The position numbers and the translations under genes were made by a program. A stretch of 64,000 nt of DNA from Synechococcus sp. PCC 7335 (GTDB lineage Bacteria > Cyanobacteriota > Cyanobacteriia > Phormidesmidales > Phormidesmidaceae), in contig NZ_DS989904.1 in assembly GCF_000155595.1 (NCBI RefSeq), positions 1,209,354 through 1,273,353 on the forward strand, read 5' to 3'. Positions 30,955 through 58,463 of the stretch are shown here, in pieces. Numbering within the stretch: position 1 is the first letter of the stretch; each line of letters starts with the position of its first letter. The notes beneath the pieces were generated by a model. The model made no database searches and had not been told where the DNA came from. It worked only from the letters and a program-made list of their open reading frames with translations.

Positions 30955-31452
30955 GTGGCTATGTATAAACACCTAAAGCGATATCGTTTATTAGGCGTCT
31001 TAGTGGCTACGTTTGTTGCGTTTAACGGAATCGCACTTGAACCCGGGCAAGCTCAGTCTCCATCTCGCGCTGTTAACCCTGCGGCCATATCGATACAGGT
31101 ATATACCCAGATACCAGAACTACCTTTAGAAAATCAGTATGTCAGCAGTGAAACCGGAGAGGTCGCTGCGGAAAATACACTGGTTTCTAGAATTATTCGC
31201 TATCACCTATACATCAAGGACCGTCCTACTACTTTGCGACTTGATTGGAAGCTGACGATGGCTGATTTTCTCGGTGTATTTGAGCGGATATCTGCCGATG
31301 ACTATCCTGACTACGGTTTGCGAGAAAATCCGATGGCTGGTGATATCTTGGCAGTTGAGAATCTAAGCTGGGAGGTACGCGATCTCCTTACCAATCTTCT
31401 TTATGAAGCATTTGTCTCGCCGACCATAGCGTCTAATAGTGACCGCAGGTGA
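30955..31452 (+). CDS. Conserved secreted hypothetical protein
   Basis: The 165-aa protein starts at GTG (or ATG two codons later). A typical signal peptide (KRYRLLGVLVATFVAFNGIALEPGQA) has a cleavage site around residue 33 (GQA-QS). The mature part contains VYTQIPELPLENQYVS, LVSRIIRYHLYIKDRP and WKLTMADFLG, consistent with a conserved cyanobacterial periplasmic protein of unknown function. Its stop overlaps the start of the next gene by four bases (GTGA), a strong sign of translational coupling. Confidence 0.75.
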   Translation: MAMYKHLKRYRLLGVLVATFVAFNGIALEPGQAQSPSRAVNPAAISIQVYTQIPELPLENQYVSSETGEVAAENTLVSRIIRYHLYIKDRPTTLRLDWKLTMADFLGVFERISADDYPDYGLRENPMAGDILAVENLSWEVRDLLTNLLYEAFVSPTIASNSDRR

Positions 31453-31820: not shown

Positions 31821-32591
31821 CGCTAGACACTTCGGCCGTAGGCACTGCTCTGTAGGTACTTCTCTGTATACCTTGCGCTGTGCACTACGGGGCACGAGTT
31901 CGAAGGTCAATTCCGCATAAGTAATCAAGCTTAACTAGGTTAATCTTGATCACTAGCTTTATCAATCACTAGCTTTATTACTTTATCTACAGCGTCATCG
32001 AGTCTATAGCGTCATTGACTGCCCAATAGCGTTTCAATTTTCACGCGTATCCAAGTCGGAGCAGGCTACGCTCGCTAGTCTTACGGGCTATGAAGACGAC
32101 TACAAGGCAAAAACTATAGGACTGTCCTCAGGAATTAATATATGGTATATATGAACTATATTCCTGTATACTATCCTATGGACGAAACTGGAATGGGTAG
32201 CGTACTAGAGAGCTACAGACCACCCATCTGTCTGCTCGTCGCTAGATAGAAAAAAGCATCCCTTCTACTGCCAGCTTAGGACTCCAAATGCCCTAAACCT
32301 ACCCTAGGCCTACAAGAGCCTAACGGTCTCTGTATTACCTCAAAGGGCCGCAGATTACATTTTTAGGTGCTCTTCGTTCGGATGTTAGAAACAATGAAGC
32401 AACTGCTGAGGTTCTCTTTTCCCATGTCATAGAATCTGGACTTTGAGTTGGAACCCATGGCTGCTAAGCGATGAATATGGATAACTGTCCTCTACTTATC
32501 TTTAGAGCTGTCTAGTGACCGGACCTAGCAGAGAAAAGTATGTATGATAGATTCAATTTAAAGCTCCTGCGGATTGTCCAGAGGATAGGTC
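31821..32591. other. Long spacer with palindrome and AT-rich stretch
   Basis: These 770 bp have no convincing ORF. They contain a 16-bp tandem duplication (ATCACTAGCTTTATCA at 31949, ATCACTAGCTTTATTA at 31965) and the perfect palindrome AGGACTGTCCT (32118-32128). An unusually AT-rich segment rich in TATAT follows (32133-32180). It also contains GGATTGTCC (32571-32579) just before the ribosome site of the next gene. It is the likely control region of the helix-turn-helix gene. Confidence 0.55.
32118..32128. promoter_or_regulatory. AGGAC-N-GTCCT palindrome
   Basis: AGGACTGTCCT is a perfect 5-bp inverted repeat around one base, about 465 bp before the helix-turn-helix gene. The same motif recurs inside that gene (32852-32862) and half-related copies flank the tRNA-Pro locus, so it may be a binding site or an iterated palindrome. 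Confidence 0.45.
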
Positions 32592-33185
32592 ATGAGTAGT
32601 GGAAATATCGACCGTATCCCGGTCAATCAACTGAGCGATCGCTACCAATTAGCTAGAAGCGCTGTGTACAAGCGCATGTCAGATTTAGGAGTTGAGCGGG
32701 AGAAGATCGGTAATCGAGCATACGTCAGTAACGAGCAGGTCAAGCTACTAGACGAGCTGCATAATTTTATCGGTGTGGGCGGCAACGTTGCCGAATTCAT
32801 AGCCCGTAAAGGACTCAACAAGCCTAGCCCCTCGTCTTCTAACAATTCTTCAGGACAGTCCTCAGGTCGATCCTCAGGACAATCCTCGGATCTAGCCCTC
32901 AACCAGTCTGATATGGTGAAGCTGATCAGTGCGATCGCGGCCGAAATGTCCACAAAGCTTCAGCCTGCTTTGTCTGCGCGCGATCCGCTAGCCTACTACG
33001 AATCCTTAGAGAAAGCAGCTAAAGGAGGATGGAAGTTGAGGACCTCTGAATTGGCAGAGCTACTAAAACTCGATCCTAAAGAGATTGAGGGCTACGGCCA
33101 CACCTTCTATGAAGCAGGATTCATCTTTAATCGTGCAGGCTATCGATCGGGGGGTGAAGGTGCTTGGCTAGTCTCGAAGAGATAG
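32592..33185 (+). CDS. Helix-turn-helix protein with Ser/Gly/Gln linker, function unknown
   Basis: The 197-aa protein has an N-terminal segment (about 8-60; IPVNQLSDRYQLARSAVYKR and EKIGNRAYVSNEQVKLLDEL) that reads as a winged or MerR-like helix-turn-helix. A low-complexity linker follows (about 78-102, repeated SSGQ/SSGR). The C-terminal domain (about 105-197) has a second helix-turn-helix-like part (LRTSELAELLKLDPKEIEGY) and an EGAWLV end. The linker is encoded by 12-nt repeats containing AGGACAGTCCT. The ribosome site GAGG sits seven nt before the ATG. Its isolation in a gene-poor region suggests acquired or regulatory DNA; no known family was recognised. Confidence 0.7.
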   Translation: MSSGNIDRIPVNQLSDRYQLARSAVYKRMSDLGVEREKIGNRAYVSNEQVKLLDELHNFIGVGGNVAEFIARKGLNKPSPSSSNNSSGQSSGRSSGQSSDLALNQSDMVKLISAIAAEMSTKLQPALSARDPLAYYESLEKAAKGGWKLRTSELAELLKLDPKEIEGYGHTFYEAGFIFNRAGYRSGGEGAWLVSKR

Positions 33186-33250
33186 AACTAGTCCGTTCTA
33201 TTCTCAATCTCCCTTTGGTCTTGTTCATTGAATCTACAATGCTATGTACT

Positions 33251-33311
33251 TAGGACAGTCTGTAGGATAAGTATCAGGAAGATACTCAGGACTATATTGC
33301 AGACTGTCCTA
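33251..33311. repeat. 61-bp element bounded by perfect 12-bp inverted repeats
   Basis: TAGGACAGTCTG and its exact reverse complement CAGACTGTCCTA bound a 37-nt centre that itself folds (6-bp stem, 5-nt loop). The 10-mer GGACAGTCTG recurs at 33476-33485 just after tRNA-Pro. It resembles a miniature inverted-repeat element or a pair of binding sites; no target-site duplication could be confirmed. Confidence 0.55.
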
Positions 33312-33328
33312 AACGTATCTGATAGCTA

Positions 33329-33365
33329 GTAGCGCACTACTTTGAGGTAGTAGGGGTCGTGGGTT
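33329..33365 (+). pseudogene. Partial duplicate of tRNA-Pro
   Basis: These 37 bp match tRNA-Pro(GGG) positions 33416-33452 (D-stem 3' side, whole anticodon arm, variable loop and start of the T arm) with a single mismatch in the middle base of the anticodon. The acceptor stem, D-arm 5' half and T-loop 3' half are absent, so it cannot form a tRNA. The offset is 87 bp. Confidence 0.85.
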
Positions 33366-33396
33366 GTGCTATTCTTGATAGGCAAATTAGCAGCTT

Positions 33397-33470
33397 CGGG
33401 GCGTAGCGCAGCTTGGTAGCGCACTACTTTGGGGTAGTAGGGGTCGTGGGTTCAAATCCCGCCGCTCCGA
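33397..33470 (+). tRNA. tRNA-Pro(GGG)
   Basis: The 74-nt cloverleaf folds by hand. The acceptor CGGGGCG pairs with CGCTCCG (one G-T), the anticodon stem CTACT/AGTAG carries loop TTGGGGT with anticodon GGG, and the T-arm contains GGGTTCAAATCCC. The discriminator is A and CCA is not encoded. It closely resembles the bacterial proL-type tRNA. It reads CCC and CCU codons. A partial copy lies just upstream. Confidence 0.96.
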
Positions 33471-33720
33471 TTGTTGGACAGTCTGCATACAGGAGCTTAA
33501 AGCGTTGACAATTTGTCAGCGCTTCTCTTGTATCAAAGGTGTATTAAAGGGTCGCTAGGAGGTAAGGCGATAGCTGAAGCTAGATTGGACGATCAGCATC
33601 TGCTAGCCATACGGTTTTCTAGCCATCGTGCTCTTCCTCCTTGCTGATGGGTTTATTTTTGGCATAAGCACTAGGCACAACCTCCTATGGCACAATGGAA
33701 TAAGCCCAATGTATAAATGA

Positions 33721-48190: not shown

Positions 48191-50104
48191 CTAGCGATTA
48201 GGCAGATAGGCAATAGGGTTGACAGCACCTCTTCCGCTCACATGAACTTCAAAGTGAAGATGAGGCCCAGTACTATAGCCTGTGCTTCCCATCTCAGCGA
48301 TCTTCTGTCCCTGCTTAACAGCCTGCCCAGTGCTAACATTCAAACGATTGTTGTGAGCATAGAGGGTGAGGCTACCGTCCGGATGGCGAATCTCTACTAG
48401 ATTGCCGTAGCCACCAGAGTTCCAGCCTGCTTTTTCGACGATGCCGCTGCCCGCTGCCACAATAGGTGTGCCGACCGGTCCAGCGACATCTACGCCCCGG
48501 TGCATCCTGCCCCATCGCCAACCGTAGCCAGAGGTGAGCGTACCGCGAGCAGGCCAAATGTAACCATCGAAGTAGTTAGGTGCTTCAGGCAGAAACTCAT
48601 CTGCCTCTGGTAAAAGCGGCATATCTGGTGAAACCACCTGTCCGGCCGGAGAACGCTGGGCAGGGACGTATGCCTCTGGACTTAGCGGCGCTGCTGCTAG
48701 CAGGGTGGAGTCAGCAGGCTCGGTGGCTGTAGGTGTAATCGCAATTTGCTCTGAAACCCGTTCTGCAACCCGCGGTGAGTTAGAAACGCTCGCTTCTACT
48801 TCAGTTATCTGTGCTTCGGATACCTGAACAGGCTGGCTTTGAATCTCTTGAACTTCCTCTAGAAGGCTTGCTACGTAAGGATCGATGCCACCTTGTGCAG
48901 CAGCTACTTGAGCGTCAGTTGCGATCACATTTTGTGAAGATGATGAATCCTTACTTTGAAGCTCTTCCTCAGTAACTGATGCATCCTGCCTAATAGCGGT
49001 GCTTTGCAAGTGGTCTAGGCGACTTTTTGCCGCTGTTTGCTCTAGCGTGCTGCCTGTCCGGATGTCTCTTCTGGCAACCTGCGGGCTGTTAGCAGTCGGT
49101 ATCACCAGCGTAGCACCCGGCATGATAACGTCTGGGTTGGCTAAGTCGTTGGCTGAAATCAGCGCTGCAGTGGACATTCCTAGGGAAGAAGCAATACCCG
49201 CAAGCGTATCGCCTGCCTGAACCTGATAGCTGACGGAAGGTGGGGTTGGCGAAGTGAGTGTGGCAACAACAGGCGAGGACTCACTGGCCCCTGCGAAAGA
49301 AGCATCAGCAACTTCGATTTCTTCTATGCCTGCTGGGTCTGATGGTTCTATAGCCGCTGATGGCTGTGCTTCTCTTGCTTCCGCCCGGGCTGCAGCGGGT
49401 TCACCCCTCTCTTTAACGAAAAGCTCTGTTGGGGAATCAACCTGACCTCCAGCCTGAGTATTGGCTACTTTAAACGCAGCTTGCACTTGGTCGAGCTGAG
49501 GAACAGGTTGGAGGTCTGCCTGTGAATTTGCCGATAGCTCTTCAGCAGACTGACTCTGGTTAGAGATCTTAGCCTTTGCAATTGTTTCAGCGTTTTCTAA
49601 AGCAAGACTGTTAGCAGCCAGTTCTATTGGTTCAGGTTCTCTAGCAATTAGACTCTGGATGACTTTTTGGGTAGGTGATTGAGCCGCTACCGCCGCACCT
49701 GGCACCTTTAATACCTGTCCAACTCGAATAGATGGTTCTACCGACAGATTATTAGCCGTCTTCAGATCGTGCAAACCTACCCGGTGAAGCTGAGCAATCT
49801 GCCAGAGGCTTTGACCCGACTCGACAGTGTGATGGGCAACAATCCGTGATTGTGACGCGGATGCTGCTGGTTTAGAAAGTTGAACACTTGAAAAAGCTTT
49901 GGCTGTAGCAGGAGCCCTTGGAGTAGAGACAGCAGCCGATGCTTCAGATTGCGTGGTGAACACTCCAGATGCACCTACTGATAAAGCTAGACCTAGCACA
50001 GCAGCTGACTTGATTGAACGGCTGCTAGCTGCGCTTTGGCGCGTTTCCTGGATACATGAGTGACTTGAATCAGACATGGACCCCTGTGAAATGGCTTGTC
50101 TCAA
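48191..50104 (-). CDS. LysM-containing M23 peptidase
   Basis: The 637-aa cell-envelope protein has an N-terminal anchor/signal (about 34-56) and two LysM domains (about 90-134 with GQSLWQIAQLH; about 294-340 with GDTLAGIASSLG). Long Ala/Gln/Ser/Glu-rich linkers separate these from a C-terminal M23/LytM domain (about 510-635) with GYGWRWGRMHRGVDVAGP (His and Asp ligands) and HLHFEVH. It likely cleaves or remodels peptidoglycan cross-links in division or separation. The TTG start is fixed by AGGAGGT eight nt upstream; an internal ATG nine codons later is weaker. Three 18-bp repeats sit in its leader. Confidence 0.92.
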   Translation of the reverse strand: MRQAISQGSMSDSSHSCIQETRQSAASSRSIKSAAVLGLALSVGASGVFTTQSEASAAVSTPRAPATAKAFSSVQLSKPAASASQSRIVAHHTVESGQSLWQIAQLHRVGLHDLKTANNLSVEPSIRVGQVLKVPGAAVAAQSPTQKVIQSLIAREPEPIELAANSLALENAETIAKAKISNQSQSAEELSANSQADLQPVPQLDQVQAAFKVANTQAGGQVDSPTELFVKERGEPAAARAEAREAQPSAAIEPSDPAGIEEIEVADASFAGASESSPVVATLTSPTPPSVSYQVQAGDTLAGIASSLGMSTAALISANDLANPDVIMPGATLVIPTANSPQVARRDIRTGSTLEQTAAKSRLDHLQSTAIRQDASVTEEELQSKDSSSSQNVIATDAQVAAAQGGIDPYVASLLEEVQEIQSQPVQVSEAQITEVEASVSNSPRVAERVSEQIAITPTATEPADSTLLAAAPLSPEAYVPAQRSPAGQVVSPDMPLLPEADEFLPEAPNYFDGYIWPARGTLTSGYGWRWGRMHRGVDVAGPVGTPIVAAGSGIVEKAGWNSGGYGNLVEIRHPDGSLTLYAHNNRLNVSTGQAVKQGQKIAEMGSTGYSTGPHLHFEVHVSGRGAVNPIAYLPNR

Positions 50105-57834: not shown

Positions 57835-57893
57835 TATGCGTCAAAGAAATGTGCATCAAAGAAATTTGCACCAAAGAACTATGCGCCAAAATA
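57835..57893. repeat. 15-bp tandem repeats over a stop codon
   Basis: Four units like TATGCGTCAAAGAAA, TGTGCATCAAAGAAA, TTTGCACCAAAGAAC and TATGCGCCAAAATAG. The last overlaps the final codons and stop of the thioredoxin-like gene. Confidence 0.85.
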
Positions 57894-58463
57894 GGCGGGT
57901 TCCTGACCAGGTGCCCACTTGATGTTGCAGCCAATACTCGGCTTTTGGGTTTCTGATATAGATTCGCCTGCGACAATTTTGTCTAGAGCCGCTCGCAGAT
58001 CTTTACCATCGACAGGCAAGTCATTGCCAGGACGACTATCATCTAGCTGACCGCGATAGGCAAGCTTGAAGTCACTATCAAACAAGAAGAAGTCAGGTGT
58101 ACAGGCAGCAGTGTAGCTCTTGGCGACCGCTTGAGTAGCATCGTAGGCATAGGGGAAGCTAAAACTAGCACGCTCTACCTGTTCGCGCATGTTCTCAGGA
58201 CTGTCCTGAGGATGGGTTTCAATGCTGTTGGAACTAATCGCTAGAATGCCAATACCTTTATCTGCATAGTCTTGGCCAATCTTACCAAGCTGGTCTTCTA
58301 CATGCTTGACAAAAGGACAATGCTGACAAATGAACATCAGTAGCAGACCTTTCTTGCCTTTGAAAGTGTCTAGGGAGATCGTCTTTTTAGAAATGACATC
58401 TTCTAGCTTAAAGCTAGGAGCAGGCGTGCCTAAAGGCAACATAGTGGATGCAGTTTTGACCAT
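57879..58463 (-). CDS. Thioredoxin-family protein
   Basis: The 194-aa protein has an AhpC/TSA-type thioredoxin fold: APSFKLEDV, LLMFICQHCPFVKH (Cys 46 and 49) and PDFFLFDSDFKLAYRGQLDD. This CxxCPF group (often annotated thioredoxin family protein) is widespread in cyanobacteria and probably reduces or oxidises protein thiols. Start ATG with AGGAGG eight nt upstream, inside the end of a 31-aa open frame. A 17-bp perfect palindrome lies within the coding sequence. Confidence 0.92.
   Translation of the reverse strand: MVKTASTMLPLGTPAPSFKLEDVISKKTISLDTFKGKKGLLLMFICQHCPFVKHVEDQLGKIGQDYADKGIGILAISSNSIETHPQDSPENMREQVERASFSFPYAYDATQAVAKSYTAACTPDFFLFDSDFKLAYRGQLDDSRPGNDLPVDGKDLRAALDKIVAGESISETQKPSIGCNIKWAPGQEPAYFGA
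58194..58210. promoter_or_regulatory. CTCAGGACTGTCCTGAG palindrome inside thioredoxin-like gene
   Basis: Perfect 8-bp inverted repeat around one T. The central AGGAC-N-GTCCT is identical to the motif near the helix-turn-helix gene 25-26 kb away. Being inside a coding sequence, it may be chance, an iterated palindrome or a real site. Confidence 0.35.

Follow-up and report, generated by a model that had tools for sequence, protein, structure and literature searches.

A probable autoregulating helix-turn-helix protein with a predicted 21-bp dyad operator in Synechococcus sp. PCC 7335, and a predicted structured RNA gene beside its relatives

The DNA analysed here (the window) is a stretch of 64,000 nucleotides of Synechococcus sp. 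PCC 7335. A gene in its middle part would encode an autoregulating protein of helix-turn-helix type which acts on a 21-bp dyad, and which in relatives also controls a dedicated RNA gene; from sequence comparison, we consider this reading of the locus probable. The window locus is best read as a reduced copy of this module, in which the protein was kept, the RNA is gone and a tandem first copy of the gene has decayed. An undescribed small system had been suspected at this place in the original prediction, which was supported here and extended by a conserved RNA gene found next to the regulator gene in relatives. The features of the window locus are as follows.

32113..32133, no strand: operator-like site containing AGGACTGTCCT at 32118-32128 (matrix score 18.6; alignments), which precedes the decayed first gene copy
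32141..32153, plus strand: putative -10 stretch TATGGTATATATG, aligned with TATAGTATAAATG of three genus relatives
32162..32182, no strand: eroded operator-like site, the second one in the promoter of the first copy (matrix score 15.7)
32178..32455, plus strand: decayed tandem copy of the regulator gene, end approximate (alignments; no open frame left)
32565..32585, no strand: predicted proximal operator TCCTGCGGATTGTCCAGAGGA (matrix score 28.1; position shared by 16 training and 15 held-out loci)
32592..33185, plus strand: probable helix-turn-helix regulator gene, 197 aa (open frame; homologues; dN/dS)
32847..32891, no strand: three overlapping, 12-bp-phased operator-like sites in the SSGQSSGRSSGQ linker, inside the coding sequence (matrix; synonymous-redraw test)
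33247..33312, no strand: remnant operator-like site at 33247-33267 with an inverted GGACAGTCTG/CAGACTGTCC pair (matrix; alignment)

The regulator protein

The 197-aa protein had been described as belonging to no recognised family, and indeed no Pfam, NCBIfam or PHROG family matched it near the cut-off. The best match was the HTH_AsnC-type entry of Pfam with 13.3 bits (E 0.076), under the curated cut-off of 27 bits. Named genomes of Phormidesmis and Leptolyngbya contain four close homologues with 61-88% identity, and a profile search revealed relatives in 27 of 58 related genomes. The window protein is under purifying selection, since dN/dS was 0.08-0.14 against four genus relatives, with dS of 0.9-1.9.

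The AlphaFold2 model, built from five rows, was poor overall (pLDDT 51) and better from about residue 141 (block means 67-78), where the order of helices and strands was winged-helix-like. The fold search of the PDB gave no match reaching E 0.001, and the profile search of PDB sequences gave nothing at E 1. As the model was poor and the PDB gave no match, the assignment was taken from the sequence pattern and from inference, by which the protein is probably a DNA-binding protein of helix-turn-helix type. Its C-terminal domain was also observed behind an unrelated N-terminal part in a 391-aa protein of the same genome (G000 contig 2, L035 688-1863), and it had matches in frames of about 340-400 aa in other genomes as well.

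Palindromes and the 21-bp dyad in the window

All palindromic strings reported in the original prediction were found at their positions, namely AGGACTGTCCT at 32118, GGATTGTCC at 32571 and AGGACAGTCCT at 32852, together with copies of GGACAGTCTG at 33253, at 33476, inverted at 33300, and at 113-122. Two exact palindrome copies at 31217 and 58197 had been overlooked, as had a copy with one mismatch at 32876. With at most one mismatch, AGGACNGTCCT had six matches in the window versus 1.49 expected, a number reached by 0 of 100 shuffles. In the whole genome (5.97 Mb) it had seven palindromic sites versus two for the reversed-pattern control, and four of these seven fell in the 64-kb window. For GGACNGTCC, the genome-wide count was lower than that of the control (31 vs 58), and AGGAYNGTCCT with one mismatch had no genome-wide excess (237 forward vs 274).

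The genome-wide count had been proposed as a check on whether the motif was an iterated palindrome; this outcome was absent, because AGGACNGTCCT sites were few and GGACNGTCC stayed under its control, and the palindromes are real and locally clustered. The reading as a genome-wide repeat was rejected on these counts and on the near-confinement of the motif to the locus. HIP1 and the other highly iterated cyanobacterial palindromes, as covered in the available part of PMC4390886, are alike in being short palindromes in a cyanobacterium; unlike them, the present motif is near-confined to one locus instead of being iterated genome-wide, and neither AGGACNGTCCT nor GGACNGTCC had the large genome-wide excess that marks a HIP-like class.

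The strings turned out to be parts of one larger 21-bp dyad, TCCTNNGGACNGTCCNNAGGA, which was obtained from the upstream regions of orthologues. A matrix was trained on 28 sites of 16 non-window loci, with L001, L002 and L004 coming from the window's genus and L003 excluded. It gave nine sites scoring at least 10 in the window versus 0.475 per simulated first-order Markov window (40 simulated windows, largest simulated score 18.0). Seven of the nine, three of them mutually overlapping, lay in 31901-33500, and they start at 32113, 32162, 32565, 32847, 32859, 32871 and 33247. Matrix support was weak for 33283-33303 (8.4), and several copies did not fit the matrix, including GGACAGTCTG at 33300 (1.3), 33476 (-8.8) and 113 (-14.0), and AGGACCGTCCT at 31217 (-13.5).

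The right arm of the site at 32565-32585 overlaps the presumed ribosome-binding AGAGGAU. The matrix indicated no good distal operator for the window gene itself. An RNA hairpin at the proximal operator was no better than shuffles in the window, where 48 of 200 were as stable; in two relatives the numbers were 19/200 and 97/200.

Two isolated operator-like sites were observed off the locus. One is at 58192-58212, inside a gene named by eye as thioredoxin-like (57879-58463, minus strand), and has the top matrix score of the window (29.0). When seven genus genomes were compared, the best score at the orthologous loci was 29.0 in the window's genome (G000), 29.1 in G002, 23.3 in G006, 11.0 in G004 and at most 5.1 in G005, G001 and G003. 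The site is thus kept in G002, partly in G006 and weakly in G004 but not in G001, G003 and G005, and was set aside as probably incidental and not a true target. Another is at 49166-49186 with a matrix score of 14.8.

Placement of the dyad in relatives

A proximal dyad was present 26-29 bp before the start codon in all 16 training loci, which make up 16 of the 17 close orthologues; in the 17th (L003, outside the training set) it was 58 bp before the start. The search for homologues with the motif in their neighbourhoods, which had been suggested for this protein, was thus answered positively. Twelve of the 16 training loci had a second dyad with at least 13 of the 16 fixed letters at 66-79 bp upstream, and the two upstream dyads were mostly about 48-50 bp apart (39 bp in two relatives). 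The held-out set consisted of 15 orthologues from genus g13, a genus that had supplied two training loci too; 15 of them had the proximal site and 14 the distal site. In this set, 66 matrix sites fell within the locus (23,975 bp) versus two outside it (26,056 bp).

Six genomes with the gene were scanned for the dyad with at most two mismatches, and 32 of 37 distinct places (counted by hand) were within 2 kb of the gene: 8/8 in G057, 7/9 in G040, 6/6 in G048, 4/4 in G034, 4/5 in the window's genome and 3/5 in G009. The reversed-pattern control gave three forward and five reverse matches in all six genomes together. Because the dyads concentrate within 2 kb of the gene, the protein appears to serve mainly its own locus instead of a wide regulon. 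One dyad of G040 (L038 16507-16527) was observed about 9 kb from the regulator gene, in a short gap between two minus-strand open frames. A related gene in G049 (E 1.6e-38) had neither operators nor the RNA described below.

The palindromes might also be products of chance or by-products of tandem repetition with no protein bound to them. The 12-bp periodicity would fit this, as would a linker which is repetitive in the protein too and the one strong dyad in the unrelated thioredoxin-like gene, but the near-fixed distance between dyad and start codon and the near-confinement of the dyads to the locus make it very improbable. Control of the protein's own gene through the palindromes, as originally proposed, is strongly supported by this phylogenetic footprinting: a conserved dyad, the mark of an autoregulator, was found at the gene's own promoter or leader, in L003 further upstream.

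Dyads were also found within the coding sequence. In the window they are carried by a Ser-Gly-Gln linker. With codon usage pooled from the same 18 genes, 11 of the 18 coding sequences had a best intragenic site that exceeded synonymous redraws of the same protein (p<0.02) and seven did not, and a linker site was present in none of the 15 held-out orthologues of genus g13. On account of these seven failures and the complete absence from the held-out set, the intragenic site is a lineage-specific and not a defining feature.

The decayed first copy and the tRNA-Pro neighbourhood

The decayed gene copy at 32178-32455 has counterparts in the genus, as the tandem first copy is open in G003 (about 122 aa) and interrupted by stop codons in G002 and G004. 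The AGGACNGTC core of the 32113 site was retained in three genus relatives, and the promoter of the first copy, with the AGGACNGTC core and the TATAGTATAAATG-like stretch, could be aligned in all four genus sequences compared. By these alignments, the palindrome at 32118 is best assigned to the older promoter of the first copy.

On the other side of the gene, control of the tRNA-Pro region by the protein had been suggested from three GGACAGTCTG copies around the tRNA. This part of the original prediction was not supported, because two of the three copies (33300 and 33476) misfit the matrix and the tRNA was seen close by only in the window's genus. It was a close neighbour in six of six genus genomes with the gene and in none of the other 24 of 31 loci, most of which were scanned to about 1.5 kb on either side. 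A 37-nt partial copy of the tRNA-Pro was observed just upstream of the tRNA at 33329-33365, 97% identical to its positions 21-57, with GAG replacing the GGG anticodon. In G006, which lacks the RNA described below, a 376-aa open frame (L004 5918-7048, L049), TnpB-like by eye, is located downstream of the regulator gene and the tRNA-Pro.

A predicted structured RNA gene in relatives

In many relatives, dyad arrays with 12-bp phasing were found past the 3' end of the gene. They immediately precede a conserved element, which lies on the other strand. A small protein was rejected for this element, as the frames were inconsistent and covariation indicated an RNA. Fifteen aligned sequences share four helices and a proposed pseudoknot, and the model has 28 pairs with 98.1% of cells paired. 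Two-sided changes were observed in 13 pairs versus 5.7 in shuffled alignments (0/500 as high), and with one row per genus (10 rows) in 11 pairs versus 2.9 (0/1000). Fifteen RNAs outside the model were 98.8% paired, with two-sided change in six pairs versus 1.9 (0/500); 14 of them belong to genus g13, from which two training rows came, the pseudoknot pairs were left out, and the alignment to the model biases them towards its structure. The second RNA of G012 (L066) and a weak one (L067) were excluded from this alignment. Further pair types were not above shuffles, with 74/500 as high in the 15-sequence set and 97/500 in the held-out set. The compensatory changes expected of a structured non-coding RNA were thus found, held-out sequences included, for the helices; the six proposed pseudoknot pairs are near-invariant and so lie outside the reach of the covariation test.

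The strand assignment is favoured by 23 G-U versus 2 A-C cells. A GGAC half-dyad runs into an extended -10-like box (GGAC-RTG-YTA) in 14 of 15 RNA genes, one or more upstream sites scoring 8 or higher were present in 15/15, and hairpin-and-T-run (terminator-like) ends were found in 15/15 by a loose pattern. By these predicted ends the RNA would be about 200-400 nt overall: about 200-380 nt, and more in G057, whose box is placed further upstream. The distance between the RNA and the gene is about 60-370 bp, and most pairs are oriented tail to tail; a head-to-head orientation relative to the nearest full-length gene was found in G009, G012 and G022. Tandem units with two regulator copies and an RNA gene between them were observed in G022 (L044) and G012 (L045), and both genomes have a second RNA upstream of the first regulator copy (a weak match in G022).

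No Rfam 15 family matched the window or the 15 loci at gathering scores, apart from tRNAs and one group II intron, and one RNA member searched at a lax threshold gave only chance-level matches (E 1.4-3.1). A known RNA family was rejected on this ground. The RNA resembles Rfam structured RNAs in its covarying helices, proposed pseudoknot, promoter-like box and terminator-like end; unlike the members of Rfam 15 families, it has no gathering-score match.

Co-occurrence of the RNA and the gene

The RNA search used strict filters, which can miss weak matches, and in 58 related genomes it found the RNA in 16, every one carrying the gene. Among 63 genomes of the order, the gene subfamily was present in 29 (28 at E<1e-70, and G011, where it is split over contig ends). 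Of these 29, 26 had the RNA, compared with 0 of the 34 others; a more distant member of the family is present in 12 of those 34. Eleven of the 26 co-occurrences count as by construction, since it was next to the gene in these genomes that the RNA was discovered; the remaining 15, in G011 and 14 genomes of g13, do not. Within genus g13, the RNA was present in 16 of 17 genomes with the gene subfamily and in none of nine without it. In G456, which has the gene and no RNA, the contig stops 12 bases past the gene, and two of the 29 genomes, that of the window and G006, are real absences. The RNA was also found outside the order, in G040, G044, G048 and G057. In a sample of 386 genomes of the phylum, where few candidates were scored per genome, it was found in three, all already known, and the wider protein family was found in 29.

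The RNA was found neither in the window nor, at E 0.01, in its genome. The segment 33247-33312 is at the position of the array before the RNA gene in genus relatives, and what is left there is one matching site (33247) and the inverted pair. The genome of the window seems to have lost the RNA gene.

Gene neighbourhoods were little shared outside the genus when 18 stretches were compared, and no gene was common to all of them. A selfish pair of toxin-antitoxin kind would fit this scarcity of common neighbours: the protein would counteract, and be counteracted by, the RNA or a short peptide encoded on it, and loss of the RNA would leave the protein behind. Tandem duplications in G003, G010, G012 and G022 would suit such a pair, as would the failure to find the RNA without the gene subfamily in the 63 order genomes, and short frames starting with MPVL could be read by eye on several RNAs. 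The letters of these frames, however, are partly those of a helix and the pseudoknot, Pfam, NCBIfam and PHROG revealed no toxin family in the protein, and the protein was retained without the RNA in the window's genome and G006. We regard such a pair as improbable, at roughly one chance in eight.

The wider family and plasmids

Distant homologues were found in 31 plasmid records, including pSYSM of Synechocystis PCC 6803. Three (L068, L070 and L071) of six fetched plasmid homologues were scanned for repeats, and all three had repeats before the gene, consisting of two dyad copies in L068, two inverted repeats 55 nt apart in L070 and two direct repeats in L071, in each case without the dyad sequence of the window. 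A blastn search with one RNA member gave no match on plasmids, and 14 loci of distant homologues gave no convincing match to the RNA (one at E 0.81). A plasmid origin of the protein family is plausible. In L068 (pP742404 of Gloeothece citriformis), the regulator homologue shares the plasmid with TIR-domain and CBASS phospholipase genes, which suggests a defence-rich plasmid. An origin from viruses or phages was rejected, as no relative was on a viral contig and one weak phage match was found (E 2e-3); the RNA pattern had a single match in viral sequences, which was not the RNA.

The plasmid homologues could also mean that the locus is a domesticated single-protein module for plasmid stability or partition, with the arrays as centromere-like sites and self-regulation as a by-product. 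The 12-bp phasing of the arrays and the repeats of other sequence before L068, L070 and L071 would fit such a module. Against it, the close subfamily is on very large contigs in the genomes with the best assemblies (4.7 Mb in the window's genome, 5.5 Mb in G057 and 6.1 Mb in G437), no neighbour gene is common to all neighbourhoods, and the RNA gene is left unexplained. A module of this kind is unlikely here, though a little less so than the toxin-antitoxin-like pair.

Single-protein plasmid partition systems are represented by pSK1 Par and R388 StbA. The present locus is like them in having a probable DNA-binding protein, plasmid homologues and repeats near its own gene, and unlike them in that its close members, wherever the assembly is informative, map to very large and probably chromosomal contigs and have a dedicated RNA gene.

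Proposed mechanism

In the preferred reading, that of an autoregulating protein, the protein, probably with two domains of DNA-binding type, would bind the 21-bp dyad. The upstream dyad is near the presumed -35 region and the second dyad overlaps the leader and the ribosome-binding site; the bound protein most likely represses its own gene. In complete modules, dyad arrays precede the RNA promoter, and the protein most likely controls the RNA too, because the arrays come before it and the GGAC half-dyad joins its -10-like box. For the window gene, self-regulation would most likely proceed via the operator at 32565, the intragenic sites and the older promoter at 32113-32182. The RNA is perhaps regulatory or binds the protein, and it may act on the protein, its mRNA or targets in the cell. 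The sequences show the sites, their placement and near-confinement to the locus in six genomes, the conserved RNA structure and its co-occurrence with the gene; that the protein binds, that it represses instead of activating, that the RNA is transcribed and what the RNA does are inferred. The arrays are equally compatible with repression, with activation and with a centromere-like role.

A further step would be that the helix-turn-helix protein and the pseudoknotted RNA form one regulatory unit, a cyanobacterial module not listed before, in which the protein controls itself and the RNA gene by a single dyad code and the RNA acts back on the protein or on targets in the cell, with the window genome as a natural deletion of the RNA half. 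This is held tentatively, at slightly less than an even chance.

Relation to known systems and significance

Autorepressing helix-turn-helix regulators with paired operators are a general class. The present protein is like them in its dyad operators around its own promoter and leader, and unlike them in that it is outside the families of Pfam, NCBIfam and PHROG and that its operators also form arrays at a structured RNA gene next to it and, depending on the lineage, within the coding sequence. An autoregulating DNA-binding protein is thus of a known kind, and the protein family and its linked RNA are absent from the libraries searched. Literature searches, mostly of open-access papers and of the parts of them that were accessible, gave no description of the gene, the dyad or the RNA.

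The locus thus adds a regulator family not represented in these libraries, for which an operator can be predicted, and an accompanying class of structured RNA that is likewise unlisted. Genomes with the RNA and the two genus members which have the protein without it could be compared as natural experiments. If the operator reading is true, the binding sites and the RNA structure would be directly testable, and the plasmid relatives, including that on pSYSM of Synechocystis PCC 6803, are an experimental entry point to the family in a laboratory strain.
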